From a virus: a stretch of DNA of 20,456 nucleotides. Location: positions 1 to 20,456 of the IMG/VR virus record IMGVR_UViG_3300008108_000523. The stretch is one strand, 5' to 3'. The position numbers were made by a program, and so were the translations under genes. Below the pieces are notes generated by a model, which was not told the origin of the DNA, ran no database searches, and saw nothing but the letters and a program-made list of their open reading frames with translations. Below, in pieces: positions 1 through 18,586 of the stretch; the first letter of the stretch is position 1; every line of letters starts with the position of its first letter.

Positions 1-72
1 AAAAATGCATCTGGTGAGAAAGCTAAAATGTATCACTGGTGCGCTAATATGAAATCTGGACGTAATAAATAA
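1..72 (+). CDS. 3' end of an unidentified protein (partial)
   Basis: Frame 1 is open from the window edge and ends in TAA at 70-72, giving 23 residues that finish ...HWCANMKSGRNK. The next gene starts 6 bases later on the same strand, so this looks like the tail of an upstream gene in the same late cluster. The fragment is too short to name. The stop codon lies inside an AATAAATA string (64-71) that weakly resembles a T4 late-promoter box for the next gene. Confidence 0.55.
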   Translation, partial: KNASGEKAKMYHWCANMKSGRNK

Positions 73-78
73 TAGATT

Positions 79-336
79 ATGAAATTAAAAGAAATATTAG
101 AATCTGCTACTGTAGGAGCCACAAACGCCGGAAATGTAGGCACTGTGATTAACCCGCATATTAGCCCCGGAAAAGCCAGAGGTAAGAAAAGCTACACAGG
201 TAGTCCAGGGAAAAGCGGAACTAAAGCTCCGCCGCAACCTAAGGTTTCTCAACCAAAAAACAAAGACGGCACAGCTAAAAACGCCTTAGATACACCAACT
301 AGCTTGTTCGGTGAAGGTAATTTCATACAGAGATAA
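79..336 (+). CDS. small basic Gly/Lys/Pro-rich protein of unknown function
   Basis: This 85-residue protein has a short N-terminal helix-like segment (MKLKEILESA), then a low-complexity region rich in Gly, Lys, Ser and Pro (about residues 28-65) that is probably disordered. I recall similar proteins in marine T4-like phages, but no assigned role. It sits just before two other likely late genes, so a virion or prohead role is possible from context only. There is no clear Shine-Dalgarno site before the ATG. An AATAAATA string ends 7 bases upstream of the start and might act as a weak late promoter. Confidence 0.6.
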   Translation: MKLKEILESATVGATNAGNVGTVINPHISPGKARGKKSYTGSPGKSGTKAPPQPKVSQPKNKDGTAKNALDTPTSLFGEGNFIQR

Positions 337-339
337 ATA
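332..339 (+). promoter_or_regulatory. possible T4-type late promoter box (GATAAATA)
   Basis: GATAAATA matches the T4 late consensus TATAAATA at seven of eight positions. It lies across the stop codon of the preceding gene and ends 4 bases before the ATG at 344. If transcription started the usual six or so bases downstream, the transcript would begin at or inside that ATG. The box therefore either makes a leaderless mRNA, serves the gene at 654, or is chance in AT-rich DNA. Confidence 0.3.
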
Positions 340-343
340 TAAT

Positions 344-652
344 ATGGACCTCGAAAAACCAAGACCAGACGATCACGAAGCAAAAATGGCAAGAGCCGAT
401 TGCTATAAATTGGCAGAATATTCTGCCAAATTATTTCAAATGATCAAAGAGGGTGAAGAATTAGACGGCTGGGTACAGGCTAAAATTACCAAAGCTGCTG
501 ATTATATTTCTAGCGTATATCATTACTTAGAGTATGAAAAAATGTCTAGAGAATCGATTAATTTAGGCCCTAGAGAATTCGAAGAAGCTGTTCAGGCTAA
601 AGTAAAAGATAGCCTTGCAGAACAATGGTTAAACAAAAAACAAGGAAACTGA
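344..652 (+). CDS. conserved T4-like phage protein of unknown function
   Basis: This 102-residue acidic/helical protein begins MDLEKPRPDDHEAKMARADC. A longer version from a GTG at 311 is possible, but it would overlap the upstream gene by 26 bases. The ATG at 344 leaves a 7-base gap, and its N-terminus matches the pattern I recall for relatives in marine T4-like phages. The middle (about 30-75) looks like amphipathic helices (KLFQMIKEGEELDGWVQAKI). It ends 1 base before the next gene. Its place between late-type genes suggests a structural or assembly role, but no domain is recognisable. Confidence 0.7.
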   Translation: MDLEKPRPDDHEAKMARADCYKLAEYSAKLFQMIKEGEELDGWVQAKITKAADYISSVYHYLEYEKMSRESINLGPREFEEAVQAKVKDSLAEQWLNKKQGN

Positions 653-653
653 A

Positions 654-1724
654 ATGGATTTCAAATCACTTATTTCTAAAATCAGCTCATTAGACACACC
701 AATTGAGTCAAAACCTGCTGCAGAGGCACAGGAAGTTCTAAGATTAGACGAAGACACAGAATTTAGAGTTCTGGCTGGTCTTACTCCTCTTACTGAATCT
801 TTGATTGCTGAAAAGAAATTAACTAAAGCAGAAAAAGATAAAAAAGAAGAAGTAGTAAAGTCTATGAAAAAAGACAAAGACGGATTTGAAAAGAGATACG
901 GTAAGCGAGGCGAAGAAGTTATGCATGCCACAGCTACTAAGGTCGCTAAGAAAAAAGAAGAATCTGTTGAAGGCGACGACGAAGCATTAAACGAATACCA
1001 ATCTAAAGATGGTAAGTATGTTCACAAAGGCAAATACGGTTCAGATTACGACGGTAGCGATCATCAAGACGAACCTAAGAAAAAAGAAAAATCCGGTATG
1101 ACTGGTGCTGAAAGACGCGAACAAAAATCTAAAGATAAAGAACAAGACAAAGCTTCTAAAGATTATGAAAAGAAACATGGTAAAGGTTCAGTGACTCGTC
1201 ATAAGATGGAAGGCGCTGAGTTAGACAAAGAAAATTTCCAAAAGAAATTTGATTCTATGGTAGAAGCTAAGAAAGAAAAAATGGCTAAGAAAGATAAGAA
1301 GATGGACGAAGGGTCGAAACCTGATTTCTTAGATCTTGACAAAGACGGCAACAAGAAAGAGCCAATGAAAAAAGCTGCTGCCGACAAAGGCGGAGATAAA
1401 AAAGACAGTGGTAAGAAAGGTATGAGTGCTGCACAGGCCAAGTACTTTGGAAAGAAAAACGAATCTGTCTCAACTTCAAAGAAAGTTGTTGCCGAATCCG
1501 TTGAAGCATCGTCAAACTTTAGAGAACTAATGAAACTTGTTATCGAAAGCGGCGGTCAGCAAGCTATCGATCCGTTAGACAAGGCATTGTTTGATTGGGC
1601 TACTAGAGTAGCACAGAGAAAGTTTACAGAATCAACTAAAGCAGAAGTTTATGCTGGCCTAGTATACGAAAGAATGGGTGGCCGTTTTGAAATGTACGAT
1701 GTGTTAAGCGAAGAACAAAAATAA
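654..1724 (+). CDS. Lys-rich, probably head-associated protein with EF-hand-like loop
   Basis: This is a 356-residue protein. Residues about 1-50 look folded (MDFKSLISKISSLDTP, RVLAGLTPLTESL). Residues about 55-285 are a highly charged, Lys/Glu/Asp-rich, low-complexity region with repeated KK and KDK patterns. The last 70 residues, from NFRELMKLVIESGG, look folded and hydrophobic again. Within the charged part, DLDKDGNKKEP (about residues 227-237) has the DxDxDG start of an EF-hand calcium loop. A folded-charged-folded layout is reminiscent of scaffold or internal head proteins; that role is inferred. An AAGGA site precedes the ATG. It is the last gene before a strong terminator. Confidence 0.75.
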   Translation: MDFKSLISKISSLDTPIESKPAAEAQEVLRLDEDTEFRVLAGLTPLTESLIAEKKLTKAEKDKKEEVVKSMKKDKDGFEKRYGKRGEEVMHATATKVAKKKEESVEGDDEALNEYQSKDGKYVHKGKYGSDYDGSDHQDEPKKKEKSGMTGAERREQKSKDKEQDKASKDYEKKHGKGSVTRHKMEGAELDKENFQKKFDSMVEAKKEKMAKKDKKMDEGSKPDFLDLDKDGNKKEPMKKAAADKGGDKKDSGKKGMSAAQAKYFGKKNESVSTSKKVVAESVEASSNFRELMKLVIESGGQQAIDPLDKALFDWATRVAQRKFTESTKAEVYAGLVYERMGGRFEMYDVLSEEQK

Positions 1725-1739
1725 ATTTAAGTTGGAAAT

Positions 1740-1772
1740 AAAAAGCCAGTCCTAGGTTGACTGGCTTTTTTT
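1740..1772 (+). terminator. intrinsic (rho-independent) terminator
   Basis: A perfect 8-bp stem AGCCAGTC (1744-1751) / GACTGGCT (1759-1766) encloses the 7-base loop CTAGGTT. It is followed by a run of T and preceded by matching A residues, so the stem can extend to about 12 bp. It begins 15 bases after the stop of the Lys-rich protein gene and separates the late cluster from the replication block. Confidence 0.92.
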
Positions 1773-1785
1773 ATGACTATATAAT
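1757..1785 (+). promoter_or_regulatory. sigma70-type promoter overlapping the terminator
   Basis: TTGACT (1757-1762) and TATAAT (1780-1785) are separated by exactly 17 bases, giving five of six and six of six matches to the bacterial sigma70 consensus. The -35 box uses the end of the loop and the right arm of the terminator hairpin. The expected start near 1792 would give a leader of about 16 bases carrying AAGGAG (1794-1799) ahead of the ATG at 1808. This fits an early or host-polymerase promoter for the replication block. Confidence 0.7.
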
Positions 1786-1807
1786 TGTCTTATAAGGAGA
1801 ATAGTAT

Positions 1808-2074
1808 ATGGCAAAAATGTATGGTCCTGAAGAACGAGCTAAACTAGAACGTCTCATCAATGAAGGTTCAAATGTTCTACGAGAAGTAGAGGATCTTCAA
1901 GAGGGTCTTAAAGAAACAGTTAAAGCAGTAGCTGAAGAACTACAAGTAAAACCCAGTATTATCAATAAGGCAATTAAGATTGCACACAAAGATAATTGGA
2001 AATCTCATGAAGAAGAATGGGATGAAATTGAAATGATCTTAGGTGTTACTAAACATTTGCCCGAGAAGGATTAA
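1808..2074 (+). CDS. dsbA: DsbA-like double-stranded DNA-binding protein (late transcription)
   Basis: This 88-residue protein is almost the same length as T4 DsbA, a small dsDNA-binding protein that acts at late promoters. The C-terminal half, from EELQVKPSIINKAIKIAHKD through the EEEWDEIE stretch, fits the pattern I recall from T4 DsbA (ExLxV...N......HKDN....EEE..E). The N-terminal half looks like a helix or coiled coil (residues 10-45). AAGGAG lies 8 bases before the ATG, below a sigma70-type promoter. The gene is followed without spacing by a membrane-protein gene and then the polymerase. The identification rests on pattern, length and context; another small helical DNA-binding protein cannot be excluded. 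Confidence 0.65.
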   Translation: MAKMYGPEERAKLERLINEGSNVLREVEDLQEGLKETVKAVAEELQVKPSIINKAIKIAHKDNWKSHEEEWDEIEMILGVTKHLPEKD

Positions 2075-2281
2075 ATGATTAATGAATTATTTAGACCTAC
2101 ACTAGAATGGATAAGAGATGATTGGCGTAGTCACCCGTTCCGTTTTATGGTGGAGATTGTCGCATGGGCTATATCGATTGGATGTAGCATCACTATGGCG
2201 CTCACTGTCCCCAATCCACCTTTACTTATTTTGTACCCTATTTGGAGTTTGGCATGTTGGCTAACTACCTGTTATTGGTAA
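2075..2281 (+). CDS. small membrane protein, probably truncated by a frame change
   Basis: These 68 residues start directly after the preceding stop codon. Residues about 1-22 are polar and tryptophan-rich (LEWIRDDWRSHPFRF). They are followed by one or two hydrophobic segments (about 24-45 and 48-60, with VPNPPLLILYPIW), so an inner-membrane location is likely. The last 11 or so residues (SLACWLTTCYW) look unnatural. A different frame from 2248 onwards encodes FGMLANYLLLVTID and ends at 2316, which looks like the true hydrophobic C-terminus. The gene as written therefore seems to have lost a small segment near 2243-2250. I recall related phage proteins of about 90 residues with no assigned function. 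Confidence 0.6.
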   Translation: MINELFRPTLEWIRDDWRSHPFRFMVEIVAWAISIGCSITMALTVPNPPLLILYPIWSLACWLTTCYW

Positions 2282-2316
2282 CCATAGATACCGTCGGATT
2301 AATCCGTATGTTATAA
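2248..2316 (+). pseudogene. out-of-frame C-terminal remnant of the small membrane protein
   Basis: In the frame starting at 2248 the DNA reads FGMLANYLLLVTID, then TVGLIRML and TAA at 2314-2316. This is a plausible final membrane helix for the gene that starts at 2075, but it is in another frame, and the stretch expected between YPIW and FGML is missing. An ATG at 2254 exists without a ribosome site. It is best read as the displaced end of the upstream gene, either by a real deletion or by a sequence/assembly error. Confidence 0.5.
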
Positions 2317-2319
2317 ATA
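2312..2319 (+). promoter_or_regulatory. T4-type late promoter box upstream of gene 43
   Basis: TATAAATA is a perfect match to the T4 late promoter box. It overlaps the stop codon (2314-2316) of the displaced membrane-protein tail and lies 78 bases before the polymerase start, leaving room for a leader that contains the hairpin at 2368-2385. No good -35 box is seen 16-18 bases upstream, as expected for a sigma-gp55 type promoter. Late expression of a polymerase gene is unusual, so this could also be chance. Confidence 0.4.
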
Positions 2320-2367
2320 AATCTGTAAAAGATGGTAGGCGTGGCCATAAACCGCACATTTGGTATT

Positions 2368-2385
2368 TGCGAGCCCTAAGTCGCA
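2368..2385 (+). promoter_or_regulatory. leader hairpin just upstream of gene 43 (possible translational operator)
   Basis: TGCGA (2368-2372) and TCGCA (2381-2385) form a perfect 5-bp stem around the 8-base loop GCCCTAAG. The GGAG ribosome site (2389-2392) and the TTG start (2398) follow at once. In T4 and RB69, gp43 represses its own translation by binding a hairpin with a 5-bp stem and 8-base loop next to its ribosome site. The geometry here is the same, although the loop differs from T4's AAUAACUC. The regulatory role is inferred. Confidence 0.45.
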
Positions 2386-2397
2386 TATGGAGAAAAA

Positions 2398-3465
2398 TTG
2401 AGTTACGTTGACGCATTCTATGATCGCAACGACGATATTATTCGTATCGTCGAACGAGACAGCAAAGGTAATAGGCATTATAAAGACTATCCTGCCAAAC
2501 ACCTTTTTTATTACAAAGATTCCAAAGGCAAGTTTACTTCTATACACGGAGATCCGTTGAATCGAGTTTCCTGTAAGAATATAAAAGAACTACGGAAAGA
2601 ACTTGCAATCCATTCAAATAAAAAACTATACGAAAGTGATATTAATCCAATCTATCGCTGCCTAGAAGATAACTATCTCAATGCGGATGCACCTAAGCTA
2701 AATGTAGCCTGGTTCGATATTGAGGTGGACTTTGATCCAGAACGTGGCTACGCATCACCGGAAGATGCATTTATGCCTATCACTGCTATCGCTGTTCACT
2801 TACAATGGATGGACACTATGGTTTGTTTGGCAATTCCGCCAAAAACTATTTCAATGGCAGAGGCAAAACGTCAAGTTGAAGAATTTCCTAACACTATGCT
2901 GTTTGATAACGAAGCAGATATGTTAGACACATTCTTAGATCTAATTGAAGATGCAGATGTATTGTCGGGATGGAACAGCGAAGGTTTTGATATTCCTTAT
3001 ACTGTCAATAGAGTAACAAAAGTTTTAAGCAAAGAAGATACTCGTAGATTTTGTCTATGGAATCAGTTCCCAAAAAAGAGAGAATATGAAAAGTACGGAA
3101 AGGCTGCTGTTACTTATGACCTTGTTGGTCGTGTTCATCTAGACAGTCTCGAGTTGTACCGCAAATACACCTATGAAGAACGCCATACATACAGACTCGA
3201 TGCCATCGGAGAAATGGAGATAGGCGAGAACAAGACTGTCTATGAAGGTACATTGGATCAACTTTATAACAATGACTTTAAAAAGTTTATCGAATATAAC
3301 AGACAAGACTGTGCATTGCTAGATAAACTTGATAAGAAGTTAAAGTTTATGGATCTTGCTAATACACTGGCACACGAATGTACAGTATTATTACAGACTA
3401 CTATGGGTGCGGTCGCATATGGGGCCGGAAACTATCGTAGGTCAACTACGTGCAGATGGAACTAA
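2398..3465 (+). CDS. 43: DNA polymerase gp43, N-terminal part (3'-5' exonuclease domain), frame-disrupted
   Basis: This is the N-terminal and proofreading part of a family B, T4-type replicative DNA polymerase. It starts at a TTG with GGAG five bases upstream. Exo I is seen as FDIE (D107, E109), Exo II around GWNSEGFDIPY (191-201) and Exo III as YNRQD (300-304). The genuine sequence runs to about A340 (TTMGAVA). The last 15 residues (YGAGNYRRSTTCRWN) are out of frame and are not polymerase sequence. The C-terminal half continues in another frame from 3419. Between the halves the expected region with motif A (DxxSLYPS), which carries a catalytic aspartate, is absent. This could be a real deletion, a sequence collapse, or a split polymerase missing one piece. 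Family identification is secure; functionality is doubtful. Confidence 0.92.
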   Translation: MSYVDAFYDRNDDIIRIVERDSKGNRHYKDYPAKHLFYYKDSKGKFTSIHGDPLNRVSCKNIKELRKELAIHSNKKLYESDINPIYRCLEDNYLNADAPKLNVAWFDIEVDFDPERGYASPEDAFMPITAIAVHLQWMDTMVCLAIPPKTISMAEAKRQVEEFPNTMLFDNEADMLDTFLDLIEDADVLSGWNSEGFDIPYTVNRVTKVLSKEDTRRFCLWNQFPKKREYEKYGKAAVTYDLVGRVHLDSLELYRKYTYEERHTYRLDAIGEMEIGENKTVYEGTLDQLYNNDFKKFIEYNRQDCALLDKLDKKLKFMDLANTLAHECTVLLQTTMGAVAYGAGNYRRSTTCRWN

Positions 3466-4876
3466 GGCATATATCGAAGCAGAAATGGCTAAAGGAAAAT
3501 CATTTGCATCGGCATGGGAAGGCGTATTCGGATCACTAGAATATACCGCAGTAATGAATCGTGAGGTAGGAAGAGAAATAACTATCGACTGGGAAGACGG
3601 AGAAAATGATACTCTAAGTGCTGCTCAGATCTACGATTTGATATTTGAAAGCAATCAGCCTTGGATACTGTCAGCAAATGGAACTATCTTCACCTACGAA
3701 AAAGAAGGTATTATTCCTGGTTTGCTCAAGCGTTGGTACGCTGAACGTAAAGAGATGCAGGCTAAACTTAAAGAATGTATTGCCGCAGGAAACAAAATTG
3801 AAGAAGAATACTGGGACAAACGACAGTTAGTTAAGAAAATTAACTTGAACAGCCTGTATGGTGCTATTCTCAACCCGGGCTGTAGGTTCTTTGATAATAG
3901 AATCGGTCAATCCACAACTCTTACTGGTAGAGCCATTGCTAAACATATGGCATCAAAAGTTAACGAAATTATCACTGGTGAATATGATCACGTTGGAAAA
4001 TCTATCATATACGGTGACACAGACTCTTGTTACTTCTCAGCGTATGCTACGTTGAAGAAGGATATTGAGAAGAATACGATTCCTTGGTCTAAGGAATCTG
4101 TTGTTGAACTTTATGATACTATAGGAGAAACTGTTAATGGAACATTCGTTAGATTCATGCAAGACGCCTTCCACGTCCCAAAATCTCGAGGAGAGGTCAT
4201 TAAAGCAGGTCGCGAGATTGTTGCTTCCAAAGGACTATTCATTACAAAGAAACGATACGCAGTACTTTACTACGACAAAGAAGGAAAACGGACAGATGTT
4301 GAAGGCAAACCAGGGAAGATCAAAGCTATGGGGCTCGATCTCAAACGTTCAGATACCCCGGTTGTTATCCAAGAATTCTTAAGTAATGTTCTAGAAAGAG
4401 TCCTTACAGGACAAAGTAAAGAAGAAGTACTAGGATACATTACTGATTTTCGTACAGAATTTAAAACACGCCCTGGTTGGGAGAAAGGATCACCTAAACG
4501 TGCAAACAACATTACAGAATACGCCAGTAAAGAGAAGAAGGCTGGCAAGGCTAATATGCCTGGTCATGTTAGAGCAAGCCTTAATTGGAATACGCTCAAA
4601 AGAATGATGGATGACAAATATAGTATGCATATCACTGACGGTGCTAAGGTTATCGTCTGCAAAATTAAAGATAATCCAATGGCTTATACATCGGTAGCTT
4701 ACCCTGTAGATGAATTAAGACTTCCACAATGGTTCAAAGATCTGCCATTTGACGATGCCGAGATGGAAAATACAGTTATCGACGAAAAGTTAGAAAATCT
4801 TATTGGTGTTTTGGAATGGGACATCAGTTCAACAAGGTCGGATAACACATTCAGCAAATTGTTTGATTTTGAGTGA
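3419..4876 (+). CDS. 43: DNA polymerase gp43, C-terminal part (palm/fingers/thumb), frame-disrupted
   Basis: This is the polymerase half of the T4-type enzyme. The first meaningful residues are MGPETIVGQ, which in family members directly follow motif A. Motif B is seen as KKINLNSLYGA (within 3833-3865). Motif C, with the catalytic aspartates, is IYGDTDSCYF at about 4006-4035 and is not interrupted by an intein. The thumb-like C-terminal region ends at ...NTFSKLFDFE. From 3419 this gives 485 residues. The frame is open upstream to 3356, but that stretch overlaps the exonuclease part and is not polymerase-like. I chose 3419 because homology begins there; no ribosome site supports it as an independent start. 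It probably belongs to one gene with the preceding part. Confidence 0.88.
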   Translation: MGPETIVGQLRADGTKAYIEAEMAKGKSFASAWEGVFGSLEYTAVMNREVGREITIDWEDGENDTLSAAQIYDLIFESNQPWILSANGTIFTYEKEGIIPGLLKRWYAERKEMQAKLKECIAAGNKIEEEYWDKRQLVKKINLNSLYGAILNPGCRFFDNRIGQSTTLTGRAIAKHMASKVNEIITGEYDHVGKSIIYGDTDSCYFSAYATLKKDIEKNTIPWSKESVVELYDTIGETVNGTFVRFMQDAFHVPKSRGEVIKAGREIVASKGLFITKKRYAVLYYDKEGKRTDVEGKPGKIKAMGLDLKRSDTPVVIQEFLSNVLERVLTGQSKEEVLGYITDFRTEFKTRPGWEKGSPKRANNITEYASKEKKAGKANMPGHVRASLNWNTLKRMMDDKYSMHITDGAKVIVCKIKDNPMAYTSVAYPVDELRLPQWFKDLPFDDAEMENTVIDEKLENLIGVLEWDISSTRSDNTFSKLFDFE

Positions 4877-4884
4877 TTTCTAGG

Positions 4885-4913
4885 TTGATTTTCATTCAAG
4901 ATCTAAATATAAT
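4885..4913 (+). promoter_or_regulatory. sigma70-type promoter for the clamp gene, with late-like box
   Basis: TTGATT (4885-4890) and TATAAT (4908-4913) are spaced by exactly 17 bases, with a perfect -10 box. The predicted start near 4920 leaves a short leader with AGGAG (4924-4928) ahead of the ATG at 4937. A TCTAAATA string (4902-4909) overlaps the -10 box and matches the T4 late box at seven of eight positions, so the site might work both early and late. Confidence 0.55.
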
Positions 4914-4936
4914 CTTAATATAAAGGAGAATTCTCA

Positions 4937-5674
4937 ATGAAAGATATTTTACAAGACATTGTGTCGCACACACAAAACCTAGGCTTCTTAACAACAGTTA
5001 AAGTCACAGGCACAGAAGATAAAACGCAGGTATTTTCTATGGCTGACGACCGCTCAGTGATCATGGAAGGAGAAACTGCTAATCCATATCCAGATATGTT
5101 AGGCACATTCGGTATGCCTCAGCTTAACAAACTCAAGTATCTGTTAGACGGTGCTGAGTATAAAGAAGATTCTAAAATTAATGTAACGTTTGCAGAACGT
5201 AACGGTGAAACTATTCCTGTTGGTATCCACTTTGAAAACAAAGATGGCGACTTCAAGAATGACTATCGTTTTATGAATCAGGAAATCATCAACGAAAAGA
5301 TGAAGACTGTTAAGTTCCGCGGTGTTAAGTGGGATGTAGAAATTGAACCTAGCGTGGCTGCGGTACAACGTTTTAACTTCCAAGCAGGTGCTAACAATGA
5401 GCATCCAACTTTCTTAGCAAAGACAGACGGCGGTAACCTGAAGTTTATCTTCGGTGATGCATCAACACACGGCGGTGAGTTTGTGTTTGCACAGAACGTA
5501 GCAGGTAAGTTAGATCGTGGTTGGACATGGCCAGTGTTACCTGTGTTAAGCATCTTAAAAATTGCAGACGTTAATAACACTAAAATGGCTTTGAGCAATG
5601 AAGGTGCTATTCAGATCACTCTCGATAGCGGACTTGCTACTTACAAATACATTATCCCTGCACAGGCAGCTTAA
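4937..5674 (+). CDS. 45: sliding clamp, DNA polymerase processivity factor gp45
   Basis: This 245-residue protein is close to the T4 gp45 length (228). gp45 forms a trimeric ring that tethers the polymerase to DNA and, when loaded, also activates late transcription. The sequence shows the alternating short strands typical of clamps, with FGMPQLNKLKYLLDGAEY (about 56-73) at the place of T4's DVAIYDLNGFLGILSL. The C-terminal domain, from EPSVAAVQRFNFQAG, ends in strand-rich sequence (GLATYKYIIPAQAA). It lies directly after the polymerase, with its own promoter and a strong AGGAG site. Its stop overlaps the next ATG by one base (TAATG). No clamp-loader genes (44/62) are in the window. Similarity is at pattern level. 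Confidence 0.72.
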   Translation: MKDILQDIVSHTQNLGFLTTVKVTGTEDKTQVFSMADDRSVIMEGETANPYPDMLGTFGMPQLNKLKYLLDGAEYKEDSKINVTFAERNGETIPVGIHFENKDGDFKNDYRFMNQEIINEKMKTVKFRGVKWDVEIEPSVAAVQRFNFQAGANNEHPTFLAKTDGGNLKFIFGDASTHGGEFVFAQNVAGKLDRGWTWPVLPVLSILKIADVNNTKMALSNEGAIQITLDSGLATYKYIIPAQAA

Positions 5675-6045
5675 TGATTAATTCTTTTACACAAGCATCT
5701 AAGTATATCACTGCATACATGGGATCTAACAACGATCCCTATTTCAGTATGTCGGCGCCAAGTGCTGGTATGTTGAGATTTAATGGCGACACAAGGAATA
5801 TGGAAGTGTATGACGGCAGTAGTTGGAGACCAATGACGGGAACTTCGGCTAGTGTAAGTATGAATCCAGATGCAGAGAAAGCCATAGAATGGGCGTTGAA
5901 AAGAATTGAACAAGAGAAACAATGGTACGAGCTCGCATCAAACAACGAAGCAGTTCGTATTGCATTAGACCAATTAGAACAGGCAAAAACAAAATTAGAA
6001 CTTACAGCAATTTTAGCGAGAGATTATGAACAAACAACCAGTTGA
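5674..6045 (+). CDS. unknown protein with a fibre-like 'RFNGDTRNMEVYDGSSW' segment
   Basis: This 123-residue protein has two parts. Residues about 25-50 carry AGMLRFNGDTRNMEVYDGSS, a pattern common in phage tail-fibre and other virion proteins (G-x-LRFN....xEVYDG..W). Residues about 65-120 are helical and charged (AIEWALKRIEQEKQWYELA, EAVRIALDQLEQAKTKLELT), probably a coiled coil. It overlaps the clamp stop by one base and the next gene by 20 bases, so it is translationally coupled within the replication cluster. Its location next to the clamp does not match a fibre role. I recall relatives in marine T4-like phages, all unassigned. Confidence 0.65.
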   Translation: MINSFTQASKYITAYMGSNNDPYFSMSAPSAGMLRFNGDTRNMEVYDGSSWRPMTGTSASVSMNPDAEKAIEWALKRIEQEKQWYELASNNEAVRIALDQLEQAKTKLELTAILARDYEQTTS

Positions 6046-7582
6046 CTTAACACCATTACAAAAGGACTACGCAGTTTATCTTCCTGCGATCAGTTCTTTC
6101 TATAGTACCTATGTAGACAAACAACGAAAAGAAGAATTTATACCTAATGATCGAATTCCCAAAGGATTCGACCGTGGTATCGAAGGTATGAACTTTCTTA
6201 ATCCAGAACAAGGATATTTTTATTATAAAAATGCTTTGTATTCAGCAGGTCATGCACAATTAGATATCGAAAAGAGTCTTGATCAAGAACTAATGATACA
6301 GGCTAGAGATCGTTCTAAAACAATGATCTTAGGAGATTCTGGTGGATACCAGATTGGTAAGGGTGTTATTAAATTCGACTGGCAAGACTTCGAAGGCCCT
6401 GCTGCTAACAAAGTCCGTGAAAAAATCTTAACTTGGTTAGATGTTACTGCAGACTGGTCTATGATGCTAGACGTGCCTACCTGGGCCTGTGATAAAAATC
6501 ATACTGAAAAAACAGGTTTAAAAACCTTTGATGATTGTCTTGAGAAGACACAATTCAATAACAAATACTTTATTGAAAATAGAGTTGGTTCTGCTAATGG
6601 TGGTACTAAATTTTTAAATGTTTTACAGGGTTCTAATTGGGAAACTGCAGAAGCTTGGTATCAAGGTGTTAAAGAATTCAGCGACAAAGCAGTATGGGGT
6701 GACAAAGCCGCTGAAGGATGGGCTATGGGTGGTGCCAATATGTGCAAAATGCCAGTAACCTTAAAGCGTCTTATCACTATGAAGTTCGATGGTATGCTAG
6801 AAGGTAAAGATTGGATGCACTTCTTAGGTACTGCACAATTAGACTGGAGTTGTTACTTAACGTCTATTCAGAGACAAATTAGGAAACATATCAATGAAAA
6901 CTTCACTATCTCCTTTGACTGTGCATCACCGTTCATCGCAACAGCTCACGGATTGGTATACACTAACGCCCAACATACCCCTAAACGCTGGAGTGTTATC
7001 ATGGATAAAGCCCCGGATAATAAGAGTCTTTCCGGACGGCACGATATACCTTTTCCTTTCGAGTCCGAAGTTGGTCGCAGACTTACGATCGCTGATATCT
7101 GCCACTATGCACCAGGAATGTTAAACAAGATCGGTAAAGAAGGTAAAACTTCTTGGGATTCATTTGCCTATGCATTGATGATGAGTCATAATGTGTATTG
7201 TCATATTGTTGCGGTACAACGTGCAAATCACTTAATGGATATCGAGCTAAAAAATAAACCTAGAATGCCGTGGAGAACATATCGTGCTAAAGTCAAAGAC
7301 AATGACTACAGCGACGAAATCAGTGATTGGGTTCCTAGAAACATTCTTTACTTTGACAGCTTTGTAGAAGAATTGTTTGCCTGTAAAGATAAAACCGCAG
7401 CATTCGAAATGATCGAAACTGCTACTACACTAGGATTCTTAAACGGAGTGGAAGGTGCTAGACTGCGCGGAGGTGTTAAGAGTACATTTAATCAACACTT
7501 CTACGAAGAAGGTGAAGAAGAAAAATCTGCTTACGCAGATGAGAGAGAAGACGAAGAACTTGACAAATTGAAAGTGGAATAA
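6026..7582 (+). CDS. dpdA: DpdA-like TGT-fold 7-deazaguanine DNA transglycosylase
   Basis: This 518-residue protein has the motifs of the tRNA-guanine transglycosylase superfamily in order: GDSGGYQ (103-109, base pocket), MMLDVPT (146-152), NVLQGSNW (198-205), GWAMGGAN (231-238), HFLGTAQ (265-271) and the nucleophile region SFDCASP (296-302, D298). TGT enzymes swap guanine for a 7-deazaguanine base; phage DpdA proteins do this in DNA and protect it from restriction. The zinc-site cysteines found near the end of bacterial TGT are not seen, and the C-terminus is acidic. FolE, QueE and a QueD-like protein are encoded in the same window, which supports a DNA rather than a tRNA role. It overlaps the previous gene by 20 bases and is followed directly by an HNH protein gene. 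An archaeosine-type or tRNA-directed enzyme is a less likely alternative. Confidence 0.82.
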   Translation: MNKQPVDLTPLQKDYAVYLPAISSFYSTYVDKQRKEEFIPNDRIPKGFDRGIEGMNFLNPEQGYFYYKNALYSAGHAQLDIEKSLDQELMIQARDRSKTMILGDSGGYQIGKGVIKFDWQDFEGPAANKVREKILTWLDVTADWSMMLDVPTWACDKNHTEKTGLKTFDDCLEKTQFNNKYFIENRVGSANGGTKFLNVLQGSNWETAEAWYQGVKEFSDKAVWGDKAAEGWAMGGANMCKMPVTLKRLITMKFDGMLEGKDWMHFLGTAQLDWSCYLTSIQRQIRKHINENFTISFDCASPFIATAHGLVYTNAQHTPKRWSVIMDKAPDNKSLSGRHDIPFPFESEVGRRLTIADICHYAPGMLNKIGKEGKTSWDSFAYALMMSHNVYCHIVAVQRANHLMDIELKNKPRMPWRTYRAKVKDNDYSDEISDWVPRNILYFDSFVEELFACKDKTAAFEMIETATTLGFLNGVEGARLRGGVKSTFNQHFYEEGEEEKSAYADEREDEELDKLKVE

Positions 7583-7993
7583 ATGCGATCACAATCAACA
7601 GCTAAAATTCATGCTCCTAAATGTGCGTTACCAAATTGTTGTAATCAAGTAGGATACCATCGACGAAGTAATAAATTAGATGGTAGTCCTGTTTGGAAAT
7701 GGAAGACATTTTGCGAACCCCATAGAACTGCACTACGTTTCGAAGTTGACGAATGGATGCGATCTGTTGGTTGTGAAAATAAACACGGCTACCTAGGATG
7801 GTTCTGTAAAGACCCTCACACAGAAAGTTTAACTATTGACCATCACGACGGAGATAAGTTAAATTCTTCTAAAGAAAATCTAAAAATTTTATGTGCTAAT
7901 TGTCATAACAAGAAAACTAAAATTTTTGGAGATCACAAAAAAAGGTATTCGTATACCAATCCAATGTTTAATAATTTTTTCGAGGAGGTATGA
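7583..7993 (+). CDS. HNH endonuclease-like protein
   Basis: This 136-residue protein starts immediately after the DpdA stop. The C-terminal half carries an HNH signature: LTIDHHDGD (83-91, with D86-H87-H88), then ENLKILCANCHNKKT (98-112) with CxxCH. The N-terminal part adds more possible zinc ligands (C14, C19, C20, C44, H47). Such proteins cleave or nick DNA. In T4-like phages they may be free-standing homing endonucleases or DNA-metabolism nucleases. Placement right behind DpdA could mean homing into this locus or a nuclease that tells modified from unmodified DNA; both are guesses. The sequence looks intact. Confidence 0.8.
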   Translation: MRSQSTAKIHAPKCALPNCCNQVGYHRRSNKLDGSPVWKWKTFCEPHRTALRFEVDEWMRSVGCENKHGYLGWFCKDPHTESLTIDHHDGDKLNSSKENLKILCANCHNKKTKIFGDHKKRYSYTNPMFNNFFEEV

Positions 7994-7994
7994 T

Positions 7995-8204
7995 ATGTAT
8001 GAAAGTCGTATAAAAATGCTTACCGAAAGCCATCGTTTATTGGATAATCAAATATCCGAAATAGAGAAAAATGGCAATTTTGATAATCAAAAATTGTCTG
8101 AATTGAAGAAACAGAAGTTGCTTTTTAAAGACGAAATTGCTAGACTTACTAAATTGCAATGGGAACAGGATCACGAAACTGTTGACTACGATGACGAAAG
8201 ATAA
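7995..8204 (+). CDS. small coiled-coil protein, YdcH/DUF465-like
   Basis: I chose the ATG at 7995 because a very strong GAGGAGG site (7982-7988) lies just upstream, overlapping the end of the HNH gene. The 69-residue product is nearly all helix: MYESRIKMLTESHRLLDNQI, then a KLSELKKQKLLFKDEIARL stretch. This resembles the YdcH/DUF465 pattern of two helices joined by a short turn, and ends in an acidic tail (DYDDER). The function of that family is unknown. It overlaps the next gene by 14 bases. Confidence 0.72.
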   Translation: MYESRIKMLTESHRLLDNQISEIEKNGNFDNQKLSELKKQKLLFKDEIARLTKLQWEQDHETVDYDDER

Positions 8205-8418
8205 AAAACATAAACCCAGTCAATTTTCTCTTAACAGGGGACAGATTGAAAAACTTGCTAAAATGGCTGCTCACTTCAAAGAAGTTGAGTGGTTTACTTT
8301 AGAAGAAAGTAACAGCAGCGGAATTGGTCCTGCCGTTGTTGTCAAGTTTAACCTATTCAACGATAGCGATAAGGACATCGATACTACCGTTGATATCACT
8401 GATGTAAGCACTTGGTAA
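8191..8418 (+). CDS. small conserved phage protein of unknown function
   Basis: The ATG at 8191 is preferred over an upstream TTG at 8137, because residues coded before 8191 would be out-of-frame copy of the preceding gene and look unnatural. The 75-residue product has a Lys-rich start (MTKDKKHKPSQFSLNRGQIE) and a strand-rich end with VVVKFNLFNDSDKD and DTTVDITDV. No domain is recognised. There is no obvious ribosome site; it overlaps the previous gene by 14 bases and its stop by 1 base with the next start, so coupled translation is likely. Confidence 0.6.
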   Translation: MTKDKKHKPSQFSLNRGQIEKLAKMAAHFKEVEWFTLEESNSSGIGPAVVVKFNLFNDSDKDIDTTVDITDVSTW

Positions 8419-8951
8419 TGAAAAGAAATTATGAATCTGGTGTTAAAGAGGATATTATATTCTTTGTTGGCACTGAAATTGAAAGAACTCCTGCCTTTGG
8501 AATGAAAACTTTGTTTGTTGTAGGTGTTCACGATCCGTATATTATTATGGAACTGGCTCGAAATAACAAATGTCAGCATATCTATTTCGGCGCTAATCAA
8601 AGTTTTAAAACTCAAGGTGTCAATGATTCCGAAACTTGGCGACCTTGGGAAGATATGATCTATGTCTGCCTAGATGCCGAAGATGGGTTTTGGTGTACCC
8701 TAGATTTTGATGTCAGCGAAACGGAAGGATTACTAGAGAGCGGTCTTACCGAAAAGCGTAGATTTATTCCGCAAATTAGTGTAAAATTACCTTATATTAA
8801 TCAACTAGGCTATAACGCTACACTAAAGATCGACGATAAAGATTTTTCAGCAACCAATCCTGGGGTATGGTGCCATAACCTACAGGACCTTCTGGGAAGA
8901 GATCGCTTCACAGACTGGGACCAATATGGCAAGGATGAGATACTTAAATGA
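8418..8951 (+). CDS. conserved T4-like phage protein of unknown function
   Basis: The ATG at 8418 overlaps the TAA of the previous gene by one base (TAATG). The product has 177 residues and looks like a globular alpha/beta protein: a DIIFFVGTEIERTPAFG stretch near the start, TLFVVGVHDP (about 32-41) and HIYFGANQSF (about 54-63). I recall this pattern from marine T4-like phages, always unannotated. No catalytic motif can be pointed out, although two conserved-looking Trp/Cys-containing stretches (EDGFWCTLDFD; NPGVWCHNLQDLL) stand out. It ends in an ATGA overlap with the next gene. Confidence 0.7.
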   Translation: MKRNYESGVKEDIIFFVGTEIERTPAFGMKTLFVVGVHDPYIIMELARNNKCQHIYFGANQSFKTQGVNDSETWRPWEDMIYVCLDAEDGFWCTLDFDVSETEGLLESGLTEKRRFIPQISVKLPYINQLGYNATLKIDDKDFSATNPGVWCHNLQDLLGRDRFTDWDQYGKDEILK

Positions 8952-9292
8952 GTGGTTATGGACAGGCAATCGCTACTATTGGCTCAGCAAATAAACAGCG
9001 AAGAATAAGAAAGGCAAAGAAAGTGAAGCTAACACTGAAACAACGTATTCGCAATTGGATAAACAGCGATGATTATGAAGAAGACTCTCTACAGGTCGTA
9101 GAGGCAGACAGACTTTCTAGTGACGGTATGCGTCTACAGATCTATAGAGCCAGCGGTGGCTATGTTGTAGAAACTCGTAGTTACGATAGTCACAAAGATC
9201 GCAATCTTAATAGTATGCACGTTATCACTGAAGATCAAGATCTCGGCAAAGCATTAGGCCAAATCGTCATGATGGAGGCATTGAAGAGATGA
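8948..9292 (+). CDS. conserved phage protein of unknown function
   Basis: These 114 residues are coupled on both sides by ATGA overlaps. Residues about 16-40 are strongly basic (KQRRIRKAKKVKLTLKQRIR), which may bind nucleic acid. The second half has strand-like sequence (MRLQIYRASGGYVVETRSYD) and ends with a helix (DLGKALGQIVMMEALKR). I recall relatives in marine T4-like phages without a function. It is the direct upstream partner of the QueD-like gene. Confidence 0.65.
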   Translation: MSGYGQAIATIGSANKQRRIRKAKKVKLTLKQRIRNWINSDDYEEDSLQVVEADRLSSDGMRLQIYRASGGYVVETRSYDSHKDRNLNSMHVITEDQDLGKALGQIVMMEALKR

Positions 9293-9684
9293 TTATCAAG
9301 CAAGACATTCGACCTAACAAAATGATTTGGGTTACCTTTCGCAAAGAAGGTATTCACAAATATCCCGCAGCCGCAACTGATCCAAACTTAGCAACAGGAG
9401 ATGAATATGATGTTTCGTTTTTGGCTAATCCCCATCGCCATATTTTTCATTTTAGGGTTTATCTTAGTGTCACCCACAATGACAGAGATGTGGAATTTAT
9501 ACAATTCAAGCGATGGCTCGAAAAACTGTATTCTAGCAACGAAGGTGTATTGTCGCTAGACTATAAGAGTTGTGAGATGATGAGCGATGACTTATATGCT
9601 CAGATTCATGCAAAGTATCCAGACCGTGAGGTTTGGATTGAGGTCTCCGAAGACGGAGAAAATGGTTCATTTATCAAGTACTAA
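9289..9684 (+). CDS. divergent QueD/PTPS-like T-fold protein
   Basis: QueD (6-carboxytetrahydropterin synthase) makes the second intermediate of the 7-deazaguanine pathway from the FolE product. In this 131-residue protein, a manual comparison with E. coli QueD puts GIHKYPAA (H23) at the place of AAHRLPHV and PHRHIFHFRV (H49, H51) at LHGHSFMVRL, so all three zinc histidines are present. RDVEFIQFKRWLEKLY (66-81) matches the helix after WIIDF, and VWIEVSEDGENG (115-126) matches the strand with the pterin-anchoring glutamate. The catalytic cysteine that should precede the HxH pair is absent, as is the LDH motif. It may therefore be an altered enzyme or a T-fold binder. FolE, QueE and DpdA nearby support a pathway role. 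The match is by eye only. Confidence 0.55.
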   Translation: MIIKQDIRPNKMIWVTFRKEGIHKYPAAATDPNLATGDEYDVSFLANPHRHIFHFRVYLSVTHNDRDVEFIQFKRWLEKLYSSNEGVLSLDYKSCEMMSDDLYAQIHAKYPDREVWIEVSEDGENGSFIKY

Positions 9685-9704
9685 ACTAAAAGGAAGAAGC
9701 TAAA

Positions 9705-9977
9705 ATGGCTCGTAACTACAAGGACTATTCTTATTTCACTAACCGTCCTGATGTCGTTAAAGTGTGGGAGGATCTTGAAGCCTACCACGACTATTGCAGA
9801 TTTGAACTCTGCGATTTTAATCCTGCAGATCTTTATCGCAAAGATTCTGCAAACTATCAGGCTTACTTAAATAGTAGGCGTCCACGCAGACCATATCAAG
9901 GCAATAAGCCTCGCTGGGACAACAACGGAGATCGCGGACAAAACCGCAGACCATATGGCCAGAATTTTTCTCGTTGA
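9705..9977 (+). CDS. small protein with Arg-rich tail, unknown function
   Basis: This 90-residue protein has AGGAAG 8 bases before the ATG. Residues 1-50 are aromatic and acidic (DYSYFTNRPDVVKVWEDLEA, then YHDYCRFELCDFNP). The last 37 residues, from about SRRPRRPYQGN, are rich in Arg, Asn, Gly and Pro (RWDNNGDRGQNRRPYGQNF), resembling disordered RNA/DNA-binding tails. I recall homologues in cyanophages with no known role. It overlaps the glycosyltransferase gene by 23 bases, so the two are probably made together. Confidence 0.68.
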   Translation: MARNYKDYSYFTNRPDVVKVWEDLEAYHDYCRFELCDFNPADLYRKDSANYQAYLNSRRPRRPYQGNKPRWDNNGDRGQNRRPYGQNFSR

Positions 9978-11055
9978 TCTAGAAGCAGTAGAAACACGAT
10001 ACACAGGCGAGTGGAAAACCCACTTGCCTGCGTTACTACGAAAGAGAGGACACGATGTTCAAATTATTGCTGGCCCTACGGATATTCCTAGTGCCACTAC
10101 TCCTGGCGCCTTTCTTAATTTTGGCGGCACTAATATCTATAAGTCTAGCCAAGTTGAACAGATGGGCCGTTTATTTTGTAACGGAGCCGTTCATGCCGGC
10201 GATCACTTTATTTTTACTGATGCTTGGCACCCGGGTATCATAAATCTAAAGTATATGAGTGAACTGTTACAGATTCCTGTAACCATTCATGCACTATGGC
10301 ATGCCGGCAGCTATGATCCTCAAGACTTTTTAGGTAGACTTATCGGGAACAAGCCTTGGGTAAGAAATGCTGAAAAGAGTTTCTTTCACGCTATTGACCA
10401 TAATTATTTTGCCACAGACTTTCACATTGAGATGTTTATGCGTAATCTTCTTAATGACGAAATGTTTGAAAATCCTTGGATTGAAGAACAGATACAAGAA
10501 GCTCTTAGAGGGGAATATTCTGGTATAATAAGATCAGGCTGGCCAATGGAGTATATGCAAGACACTCTATTAATGTACAAAAATATGCCTAAGCGTGATC
10601 TCATATTGTTTCCGCATCGAATGGCTCCGGAAAAACAACTGCCTATTTTTGAAGATCTGCGTCAACAACTTCCTCAATATGATTTTAAGGTGTGTCAAGA
10701 GTATCCGCTATCGAAAAACGAATATCATAATTTACTAGGCGAGGCTAAGTTAGTGTTTAGTGCTAACTTACAAGAAACACTAGGTATCAGTTGGTATGAA
10801 GGTGCATTAGTAGATGCTATTCCTATGGTTCCGGATCGTTTGAGCTACAGTGAAATGGCGTTAGATGATTTCAAATATCCTAGCGAATGGACGGAATCAT
10901 TTGAATCTTATAAAACAAATAGACACTACATTGTGGCGCAGATTATTGAGTACATGGAAAATTACAGACAGTTTTTACCTAGCCTAAATAAACAAGCAGA
11001 TGCGTTAACACAAAACTTCTTTAGTTGTAATAAACTGCTAGAGATGTTAAAATAA
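9955..11055 (+). CDS. GT-B glycosyltransferase (group 1/GT4-like)
   Basis: This 366-residue protein starts with a Rossmann-type strand (MARIFLVDLEA) and has the C-terminal donor-binding features of GT-B enzymes: a strand then PHRMAPEKQLPIFEDL (220-235, the usual G/HR..PEK element), LSKNEYHNLL (252-261) and QETLGISWYEG (273-283, the E-x7-E-like motif), followed by PMVPDRLSYSEM. Such enzymes move a sugar from a nucleotide donor. Targets in phages include modified DNA bases, as with T4 glucosyltransferases, and proteins or host polysaccharide. Its place between the QueD-like and FolE genes makes a DNA-base target worth considering, but nothing in the sequence proves it. Confidence 0.82.
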   Translation: MARIFLVDLEAVETRYTGEWKTHLPALLRKRGHDVQIIAGPTDIPSATTPGAFLNFGGTNIYKSSQVEQMGRLFCNGAVHAGDHFIFTDAWHPGIINLKYMSELLQIPVTIHALWHAGSYDPQDFLGRLIGNKPWVRNAEKSFFHAIDHNYFATDFHIEMFMRNLLNDEMFENPWIEEQIQEALRGEYSGIIRSGWPMEYMQDTLLMYKNMPKRDLILFPHRMAPEKQLPIFEDLRQQLPQYDFKVCQEYPLSKNEYHNLLGEAKLVFSANLQETLGISWYEGALVDAIPMVPDRLSYSEMALDDFKYPSEWTESFESYKTNRHYIVAQIIEYMENYRQFLPSLNKQADALTQNFFSCNKLLEMLK

Positions 11056-11090
11056 AATGTCATCCACGACTATAACTCGGAGAATTATAA

Positions 11091-11927
11091 TTGACAAACA
11101 AATTTAAACCAGATCCTGTATTAAATGAAAATATAAACACAGAATTCGTAAAAGACGAATTTAAAGATCAGTATGTTCCACTTCCCCAAAAAGTTTATGT
11201 TAAAGCTGGGGAAATGATGAGTGACAAGGGCTACGAAGAAGCATATCTTGGCGATCATCTTCGCTTTAAAATGAAACGTGAAGGTAAACGTTTTTGGGCA
11301 GGCGATAACATCAGCGACTTCTTACACGAAGGCGATAAAGAGAAACTTATTGACGAAGCCGCAGAAGCATTTGAAACAGTTCTAGATAGATTGCTTATTG
11401 ATCGAGAAACTGATCCTAACAGCAAAGGTACAGCAAGACGTCTTGCTAAAATGTACTTTAATGAAATAATGGCAGGAAGATATGAACCAGCACCAGACGC
11501 TACAGCGTTTCCAAATGATACAGAGGACCGTTACGAAGGTATGTTGGTTGTCCGTAGCGAGCTACGCAGTATGTGTAGTCATCATCACCAGCCCGTTAGT
11601 GGCGTGGCATATATCGGCATCATTGCCGCAGAAAAACTCATCGGCCTTTCTAAATACACTCGTATCGCACAGTGGTGTGCCCGGCGCGGCACGCTTCAAG
11701 AAGAGTTGGCGAACGACATTGCCCGAGAAATCATGCGAGCTACAGGTGCCAAGGATGTAGGTGTTTATATTCAAGCAGTACACGGATGCTGCGAGAATCG
11801 CGGTATTATGGCACATTCAAGTTTAACACAGACTACTGTGCTAAAAGGTGCTTTCAAAGATGACCAAAGTACAAAGAAGGAATTCTTTGATAATATCAAA
11901 TTACAACAAGACTTTGCCCCTAGATAA
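11091..11927 (+). CDS. folE: GTP cyclohydrolase I (FolE)
   Basis: FolE converts GTP to dihydroneopterin triphosphate, the first step of both folate and 7-deazaguanine synthesis. This 278-residue protein has the family core from about residue 85: SMCSHHHQPVSG (160-171; C162 and H165 match the zinc ligands), IGLSKYTRIAQWCARRGTLQ (184-203) and AVHGCCENRG (229-238; C233 is the third ligand). The first 80 residues go beyond the usual short N-terminus and look specific to phage. The start is a TTG with GGAG 8 bases upstream; the next ATG, at residue 42, would still keep the core. It is followed 8 bases later by a tiny Cys-rich gene. With QueE and DpdA in the window, deazaguanine synthesis is its likely use. 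Confidence 0.93.
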   Translation: MTNKFKPDPVLNENINTEFVKDEFKDQYVPLPQKVYVKAGEMMSDKGYEEAYLGDHLRFKMKREGKRFWAGDNISDFLHEGDKEKLIDEAAEAFETVLDRLLIDRETDPNSKGTARRLAKMYFNEIMAGRYEPAPDATAFPNDTEDRYEGMLVVRSELRSMCSHHHQPVSGVAYIGIIAAEKLIGLSKYTRIAQWCARRGTLQEELANDIAREIMRATGAKDVGVYIQAVHGCCENRGIMAHSSLTQTTVLKGAFKDDQSTKKEFFDNIKLQQDFAPR

Positions 11928-11935
11928 GGAAAATT

Positions 11936-12100
11936 ATGAATCAACAAACTGAACTAAAAAAAGGAACCTGTGGCTGTGGTCGTAGTCCTACAGGAGATTG
12001 TATCGGATGGCACAGTCTGTCAGAAGATATGTATCAACATCAAAAAAGACTCTGGCTAGAAGAACAGTTTCGTAAAGATCAAGAAGCAGAACAAAAATAA
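11936..12100 (+). CDS. 54-residue CDGSH-like Cys/His protein
   Basis: This short gene follows FolE by 8 bases, with AAGGAAA close to its ATG. It encodes KKGTCGCGRSPTGDCIGWH near the start (residues 8-26) and then a charged helix (about 30-53). The spacing C-x-C-x2-S-x4-C-x3-H closely resembles the CDGSH iron-sulfur motif (C-x-C-x2-S/T-x3-P-x-C-D-G-S/A/T-H), with one residue less and CIGWH in place of CDGSH. It could hold a 2Fe-2S cluster or a zinc ion. I recall similar tiny proteins in cyanophages without a function. QueE, the Fe-S enzyme of the pathway, is encoded 3 kb downstream. Confidence 0.72.
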   Translation: MNQQTELKKGTCGCGRSPTGDCIGWHSLSEDMYQHQKRLWLEEQFRKDQEAEQK

Positions 12101-12109
12101 AAGACTATA

Positions 12110-12331
12110 ATGAATAGTGCAGAATTAGCCAGTTCTTTTATACAAAGAGTTAGAAATCTTAAAACTTTTCAAGTTCAGAGATCTCTTGACGACCCTTTAT
12201 CTTTCACTAGGGGGCCTGTTCCTTTTGACATAAAAGCCAATCAAGAATATGCTTGGTTCTCTGTATTAGCAGTAAGTCAACAGGAAGCAGAAGAAATGGT
12301 AGATCGCTGGTTAGAAGGCACACATGATTAA
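12110..12331 (+). CDS. small conserved phage protein of unknown function
   Basis: A 73-residue protein with a helical start (NSAELASSFIQRVRNLKTF), a middle FDIKANQEYAWFSVLAVS stretch and a final helix (QQEAEEMVDRWLEG). No domain is recognised. It has no clear ribosome site and overlaps the DNA glycosylase gene by 8 bases, suggesting coupled translation with it. I recall similar small proteins in marine T4-like phages. Confidence 0.65.
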   Translation: MNSAELASSFIQRVRNLKTFQVQRSLDDPLSFTRGPVPFDIKANQEYAWFSVLAVSQQEAEEMVDRWLEGTHD

Positions 12332-12761
12332 ACCGTTATTAGATGAATTAATGGTACAACAACAGTTACCTTCTAACGATCGAACTGTTCGTGCTTGGCA
12401 GCATATGGTCGCTGTCATTATGCTAAATCAAACTGGAAGAAAGGCAGTGAAGTATGTACTGCCTATATTTCTCAATCGTTGGCCCACTCCTAATAAATTT
12501 TTGTTCTCTACTATCGACGAGGTCAAGGAAGTAATTTGGCCGTTAGGTATGTACAATGTACGTTTTCAAAGACTTAAAAGAATGACTGCTGATTTCTTGC
12601 TTTGGGATGGAAATGATGCTAAACTGTTGTATGGTATCGGCAAATACGGAAGCGATAGCTACGAAATCTTTTTTAAACAAAATTATTCTGTGCAACCTAC
12701 AGACAAAGAACTAAAAAGATATCTCGAAGAGGAAATTTTTAATGTTGTTGAAGCTACTTGA
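12324..12761 (+). CDS. MBD4-like DNA glycosylase (HhH-GPD)
   Basis: This 145-residue protein matches the catalytic domain of MBD4, a helix-hairpin-helix glycosylase that removes T or U from G mismatches. MLNQTGRKAVKYVLPIFL (33-50) corresponds to the FLNRTSGKMAIPVLWKFL-type segment, EVIWPLGMYNVRFQRLKRM (69-87) to the LLKPLGLYDLRAKTI-type segment, and LYGIGKYGSDSYEIFF (102-117) to the hairpin plus the catalytic aspartate (D111). There is no methyl-CpG-binding domain and no Fe-S cysteines, as in MBD4. In a phage with a dCMP deaminase it could repair deaminated bases, or it could act on modified bases; the substrate is not shown. It overlaps both neighbours. Confidence 0.8.
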   Translation: MIKPLLDELMVQQQLPSNDRTVRAWQHMVAVIMLNQTGRKAVKYVLPIFLNRWPTPNKFLFSTIDEVKEVIWPLGMYNVRFQRLKRMTADFLLWDGNDAKLLYGIGKYGSDSYEIFFKQNYSVQPTDKELKRYLEEEIFNVVEAT

Positions 12762-13218
12762 ACGATTAGGTCGTAAGCGTATTATTTTTGATCGCGTACA
12801 CAATGAACCGTATCTCGAACGGTATTATCTCTTTTTAAAAGAGCGTAACCGTTTTCCATTTAATGTATTTTTACACAAGTTCTTAAAAGGAGATCCGGAT
12901 GACGTTCACGATCATCCTTGGCCCTATGCTACATTGATTTTGAAAGGTGGTTATTATGAATGGGTTCCGCAGTTTGACGAACAGGGCAATAAATCTTGTG
13001 AAATACGTAAATGGAGAGGACCCGGCCATTTTCGTATATGTAGCCCTAACTCTTATCATCGTATTGAGCTTAAGCCTGGCGTAACAGCGTGGACGTTGTT
13101 TATGCCCGGTCCTCACAAACGTGATTGGGGATTCTTAGTTAATAACAAATGGATTCAACACGAACAATATTTAAAGGAAAGATATGAACAAGCTCATATT
13201 TCAACAACAAGAACTTAA
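12742..13218 (+). CDS. cupin-fold protein
   Basis: This 158-residue protein is preceded by AGAGG 9 bases before the ATG. The cupin signature is clear: HDHPWPYATLILKGGYYEW (56-74), with H56 and H58 as metal ligands followed by the LxGxY-type turn, and later PNSYHRIEL (102-110), with H106 as a further ligand. The end (WTLFMPGPHKRDWGF) also fits a beta-barrel. Cupins include dioxygenases, isomerases and sugar epimerases, so the reaction cannot be assigned. It overlaps the glycosylase gene by 20 bases and the phosphoribosyltransferase gene by 35 bases, placing it within one coupled unit. Confidence 0.78.
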   Translation: MLLKLLERLGRKRIIFDRVHNEPYLERYYLFLKERNRFPFNVFLHKFLKGDPDDVHDHPWPYATLILKGGYYEWVPQFDEQGNKSCEIRKWRGPGHFRICSPNSYHRIELKPGVTAWTLFMPGPHKRDWGFLVNNKWIQHEQYLKERYEQAHISTTRT

Positions 13219-13771
13219 CGGTCTTGTTAGCAAGATATGTAGAGATATTGTGATCAGCAGCTGGCGTCCTGATTACATTGTAGGATTAACAAGAGGTGGG
13301 CTGATTCCTGCTGTAATGATCAGTCATTATCTCAATGTTCCGATGTATGCCCTAGGAGTAAGCCTACGAGACGGTCAGGGCGGAGAAAGTAATTTATGGA
13401 TGGCCGAAGATGCTTTAGGTTATCCTAAAAAAGAAATATTCGTAAACGACGAAAACGATATAGGGGCTGTATTAGATGCAGCTGGTTCACTTTTAGAACA
13501 AGGTGAAAACTTTAAGAATATTCTTATTGTCGACGACATCAACGACACCGGTGCTACTTTTAATTGGATAATTAATGATTGGCCGAGTGGCTGTTTGCCT
13601 AACGATCCTGACTGGGAACACGTTTGGAACAATAATGTAAAATTTGCAGTATTAGTTGATAATCTAGCTAGTAAGTGCGAAGTTAAAATGGATTTTGTTG
13701 GAAAAGAAATCAACAAAGCAGAAAACGATGTTTGGGTTGATTTCCCTTGGGAAGATTGGTGGGCAAAATGA
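13184..13771 (+). CDS. phosphoribosyltransferase (PRTase family)
   Basis: This 195-residue protein carries the PRPP-binding motif ILIVDDINDTGATF (113-126), the hallmark of type I phosphoribosyltransferases, and the earlier YIVGLTRGGLIPAVM segment (31-45), which forms the PPi loop. Such enzymes join a base to PRPP; the closest style is purine (xanthine/guanine) salvage. The Trp-rich end (WVDFPWEDWWAK) is unusual. AAAGGAAAG precedes the ATG. In this setting it might salvage purines or charge a deazapurine base, but that is inference. Its stop overlaps the HIT gene start (ATGA). Confidence 0.83.
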   Translation: MNKLIFQQQELNGLVSKICRDIVISSWRPDYIVGLTRGGLIPAVMISHYLNVPMYALGVSLRDGQGGESNLWMAEDALGYPKKEIFVNDENDIGAVLDAAGSLLEQGENFKNILIVDDINDTGATFNWIINDWPSGCLPNDPDWEHVWNNNVKFAVLVDNLASKCEVKMDFVGKEINKAENDVWVDFPWEDWWAK

Positions 13772-14357: not shown

Positions 14358-14375
14358 TTCTTTGAAAAACGCTCA

Positions 14376-15196: not shown

Positions 15197-15197
15197 T
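15169..15197 (+). promoter_or_regulatory. possible sigma70-type promoter before queE
   Basis: TTGGCA (15169-15174) and TATAAT (15192-15197) lie 17 bases apart: five of six and six of six consensus matches. They sit in the last codons of the AbrB-like gene. The expected start (about 15204) falls at the QueE ATG (15203), so a transcript would be leaderless or would use a slightly shifted start. The match is good, but the lack of leader lowers confidence. Confidence 0.38.
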
Positions 15198-15202
15198 AAA
15201 AT

Positions 15203-17498: not shown

Positions 17499-17541
17499 TT
17501 TGAGTTGTGAATCTCGAACAGACACTTGTTGGGAGGAACCA

Positions 17542-18295: not shown

Positions 18296-18300
18296 GAAAA

Positions 18301-18585: not shown

Positions 18586-18586
18586 T

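Follow-up and report, generated by a model that had tools for sequence, protein, structure and literature searches.

The motif A segment missing from a T4-type DNA polymerase gene in a freshwater phage record is probably an assembly or consensus artefact

Split gp43 DNA polymerases exist among the T4-like phages of Aeromonas. In phage 25, proteins 43A and 43B purify together and are active as a polymerase, the coding sequence in these phages is divided by an insertion, and T4-like replication genes are known to be entered by homing endonuclease genes (PMC2988022). The DNA analyzed here, hereafter the window, is a freshwater phage fragment of 20,456 bases that makes up the whole of IMG/VR record IMGVR_UViG_3300008108_000523. 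As in the Aeromonas phages, its polymerase coding sequence lies in two pieces; unlike in those phages, coding sequence is missing. The window shares with T4-like gp43-type family B polymerases the domain order, the exonuclease domain, and motifs B and C, but its copy is frame-broken and lacks 64 residues, motif A among them. The features needed for the argument are as follows.

2075 to 2281, plus strand: gene for a small hydrophobic protein, cut to 68 aa by a 46-base loss (95 aa in L083, a locus of the nearest relative)
2246/2247, plus strand: second junction, at which 46 bases are absent by alignment with 7 of 7 near-identical contigs; microhomology, 0
2247 to 3416, plus strand: block of 1,170 bases between the two junctions, gap-free against relatives (mismatches: L083, 2; L286, 1)
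2398 to 3417, plus strand: N-terminal part of a T4-type family B DNA polymerase (exonuclease domain and start of the palm), with a TTG start; DNA_pol_B_exo1, phrog_262
3416/3417, plus strand: junction at which 191 bases with palm motif A are absent by alignment with 7 of 7 near-identical contigs; microhomology, 0
3419 to 4876, plus strand: C-terminal portion of this polymerase (remainder of the palm, motifs B and C, and what follows), in a different frame; DNA_pol_B, phrog_262

Translation from the TTG at 2398 gives polymerase as far as TTMGAVA, with the last in-gene codon at 3415 to 3417, and then an out-of-frame tail that runs to a stop codon at 3463 to 3465. MGPETIVGQ begins in another frame, at ATG 3419, and this frame closes with a stop at 4874 to 4876 (open reading frame [ORF] 3356 to 4876). 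An earlier note on this DNA had described just this arrangement, genuine polymerase from 2398 followed by nonsense and then by GPETIVGQ in another frame, and translation confirms its coordinates. Profile searches show that this is one polymerase present as two pieces: of the 856 positions of phrog_262, the N part of the window covers 6 to 353 and the C part covers 417 to 852, while the intact relative L083, which has a single frame of 889 aa with no change at the site corresponding to 3416/3417, matches 6 to 852 in one uninterrupted stretch. The exonuclease domain is recognized by Pfam (DNA_pol_B_exo1 on 2398 to 3462; E, 6.9e-20), and DNA_pol_B matches the C part (E, 1.8e-24), with the best stretch starting at profile position 113, compared to position 13 in L083. 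ORF 3356 to 4876 retains KINLNSLYGA and YGDTDS, aligned to the RB69 gp43 structure 1clq via an intact relative, which we take to be polymerase motifs B and C.

Compared with four near-identical contigs (L083 to L086), exactly 191 bases are missing between 3416 and 3417, and the flanks match on both sides. Counting the codons that it splits at either end, this makes 64 residues absent between TTMGAVA and MGPET, close to the 60 or so codons that had been estimated for the region 3400 to 3440. The lost residues include SLDINSLYPSAIR, the palm motif A segment. L083 aligns with RB69 gp43 (1clq) over residues 22 to 835 (E, 1.2e-60), and the motif aspartate falls at chain position 411, counted by eye on the printed alignment; we take this residue to be the catalytic aspartate of motif A. 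From the chemistry of family B polymerases, an enzyme that lacks it should not polymerize. The pattern D..[SA].YP is absent from all six frames of the window, and the DNA pattern for motif A has no match elsewhere in it. A tblastn search of the window with the missing 64 residues gave only chance-level matches (best E, 1.1; control L083, 8.7e-43), in agreement with the claim that motif A is found nowhere else in the window. The earlier note had also proposed an alignment with gp43 enzymes as a check; alignment with intact relatives shows that the residues are missing from the window as recorded.

Motif A is in frame in all 99 distinct sequences obtained from 155 loci, which were fetched via the N or the C part separately. 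In a wider set that includes loci from pattern scans, and from which 67 duplicates and 2 short sequences were dropped, motif A remains in frame in 214 of 216 distinct sequences. The left end of the window continues as in intact genes in at least 120 matches in viral_contigs, but these pattern-scan loci were picked for an intact left end and are no independent evidence on intactness. Only the window and L268 depart from this. The latter carries an apparent insertion right after TTMGAVAV that we take for a chance hit of the pattern: tblastn finds no polymerase in L268 at an E value of 1e-5, and Rfam finds three tRNAs only.

These comparisons bear on two further readings. An N part (2398 to 3465) and a C part (from ATG 3419) could be made apart and then assemble, like 43A and 43B; the C frame is indeed opened by an ATG, and the phage 25 enzyme is a precedent. 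A split enzyme, however, demands every residue across its two pieces, and here 64, with motif A, are absent from the window. The half-gene families phrog_2062 (N-half) and phrog_1918 (C-half) match residues 11 to 534 and 517 to 887 of the intact enzyme, so these families meet downstream of motif A, at about 517 to 534; moreover, none of the 99 distinct relatives shows a break before motif A. We give a split enzyme hardly any credence. The other reading, that an intron, intein, or other mobile element interrupts the gene at the junction, draws on the entry of homing endonuclease genes into T4-like replication genes (PMC2988022). It is contradicted by the alignments, in which bases are lost and none are added, and by the same 99 relatives, in which motif A follows in frame. 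Rfam reports no family at the gathering score in the window, and a mobile element appears every bit as improbable.

Seven near-identical IMG/VR contigs were aligned with the window, and in 7 of 7 all 191 bases are present between the blocks that match; the 46 bases upstream are likewise present in all seven; the contigs come from seven differently numbered metagenomes. In exact-pattern scans of viral_contigs, a left marker hit six contigs and a right marker hit seven, with six common to both; in these six the markers are separated by 815 bases, which is 191 more than the 624 in the window. In the seventh contig, 3300032050_008598, the left marker differs by one base, and alignment shows the same 191 bases. 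(The 191-base alignment for contig 3300044701_003572 was made via L086, and the 46-base site of 3300032050_008598 was read via L083.) That seventh contig, IMGVR_UViG_3300032050_008598 (L083/L158/L277), is the nearest relative found: it is 99.8 to 99.9% identical to the window and gap-free over three blocks, and it has both the 191 and the 46 bases that the window lacks. Coverage is by L083 for 1 to 8873 and by L158 for 2170 to 20456. Blocks 1 to 2246, 2247 to 3416, and 3417 to 20456 show 2, 2, and 16 mismatches, respectively, and no indels, counts that omit two mismatches and a one-base gap attributable to alignment slack at the junction. Other relatives do carry indels relative to the window, e.g., one 6-base gap in L286.

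The 46-base loss at 2246/2247 is absent from the earlier note. The conserved 95-aa small protein was matched in 179 loci including the window, with 108 distinct aligned sequences, and only in the window is it in two pieces. Best matches were partial in 10 loci: the window, seven loci in which the match starts right at the locus boundary (L056, L116, L128, and L158 to L161), and two distant relatives (L164 and L186). Both losses are clean, and neither is a multiple of three.

We consider the missing 191 bases to be an assembly or consensus artefact, with a probability of about 0.87, because all seven siblings are intact and another clean loss is present a short way upstream. The underlying gene is then likely an ordinary single-chain T4-type (gp43-like) DNA polymerase in a faulty record, and the natural phage would carry an intact enzyme like the 889-residue one of L083. 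In the account that we favor, three correctly assembled pieces (1 to 2246, 2247 to 3416, and 3417 to 20456) would have been abutted end to end, and the 46 and 191 bases between them dropped on joining; the 1,170-base block would be a separately assembled piece, and the losses would have arisen during assembly, scaffolding, or gap handling rather than in the phage. What suggests three pieces is that two clean losses, neither of triplet length, lie 1,170 bases from each other, that the sequence has no other indel relative to its nearest relative, and that the siblings found are intact. We saw neither join in another record: a degenerate pattern of the 3416/3417 junction and the exact 2246/2247 junction each gave 0 matches in viral_contigs, although this search may omit close neighbors of the window, and an independent record with the same junction could be among them.

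The fault may lie in scaffolding, dropped gap characters, or strain mixture. Against such a fault, assemblers that use k-mer graphs normally do not join pieces that have no k-mer in common. To invoke gap characters that were dropped is a guess: Ns are absent from both joins, and none of 280 loci contains two or more Ns in a row, an observation that is compatible with this cause but no proof of it. As for strain mixture, the 191-base polymerase segment differs at 3 positions between L083 and L084 and at 6 between L083 and either L085 or L086, and the 46-base segment shows no difference among L083 to L086; the data therefore hint at most, and at one site, that variation between strains caused the break. 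The mismatches of the 1,170-base block (1 to L286, 2 to L083, and 5 to L282) are too few to tell whether it originated in another strain.

The main competitor of an artefact is that some phages in the sample truly lost the 191 and 46 bases and encode a polymerase without motif A, either dead on their own or copied only alongside a coinfecting intact phage. The recorded sequence itself shows the loss, the lack of any further indel against the nearest relative means that the remainder does not look decayed, and helper phages can carry defective genomes. Against this stand the seven intact near-identical contigs, the lack of a match to either junction in viral_contigs (where very near records may be left out), and the need for two independent gene-breaking losses within 1.2 kb. 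Each of eight longer relatives (34 to 163 kb, all incomplete records) has one family B polymerase locus, and no backup second family B polymerase was seen in these eight incomplete records. A broken gene would thus leave no obvious replacement, and losing this polymerase is probably lethal.

Natural indels among the relatives offer a further comparison. We surveyed 690 ordered pairs with at least a 93% match over 1 kb and recorded 35 events in 9 groups. Besides the two in the window there were four further indel events, with exact junction matches of 8, 2, 1, and 0 bases; the event with 0 has a 7-of-8 near-repeat at its ends, read by eye. The zero microhomology at both window junctions fits an artefact but discriminates little, since random breakpoints would give it at two sites with an estimated frequency of about 0.3. 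The effect on reading frames, read in L005/L084 and L063/L133, appears to be the better contrast; the other two events are those of L029/L030 and L068. A 15-base loss in L005/L084 falls within the small-protein gene and stays in frame, and a 355-base loss in L063/L133 takes out one whole gene and leaves its neighbors open; both of these sizeable indels spare reading frames, unlike the two losses in the window. The 355-base loss (L063, about 4083, versus L126, 5913 to 6268) removes a small gene between a clamp-like gene and the gene for a 518-aa protein, and it looks like a natural gene loss. No other contig in the survey had two such joins, so the survey does not show them to be a general fault of the collection.

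Taken together, we regard a true deletion variant as unlikely. A more specific version, a genuine minority genome that has lost motif A, has a broken small membrane-like protein, and is copied only beside intact siblings, seems less likely still. The earlier note had left the choice open between a real deletion, with a defective genome or a rescued or split enzyme, and an assembly or consensus error. The missing stretch stands; error is favored by the seven intact contigs, the unmatched junction, and the second loss; and a rescued or split enzyme is not supported, since the missing segment does not occur elsewhere in the window.

The rest of the window holds several recognizable genes. The gene directly after the polymerase (4937 to 5674) matches phrog_12062, of unknown function (E, 2.3e-35), and its place suggests a putative sliding clamp. 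For the 518-aa protein (6026 to 7582), searches of Pfam, PHROGs, and PADLOC gave no match at an E value of 0.001; judged by eye, it may be a transglycosylase-like DpdA that goes with the folE/queE genes. An HNH endonuclease gene follows at 7583 to 7993 (Pfam E, 1.2e-4), possibly encoding a homing endonuclease. The window also encodes GTP cyclohydrolase I (11091 to 11927; Pfam E, 5.4e-40) and a QueE-like radical SAM protein (15203 to 16054; phrog_2076; E, 8.7e-52), which are part of a 7-deazaguanine pathway, perhaps with a role in modified phage DNA.

The case carries a caution: when an essential gene in a metagenome contig shows a clean loss that breaks its frame, near-identical contigs should be compared before the loss is given a biological meaning. 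If the deletion were true after all, the window would represent a T4-like phage genome that depends in nature on a helper.
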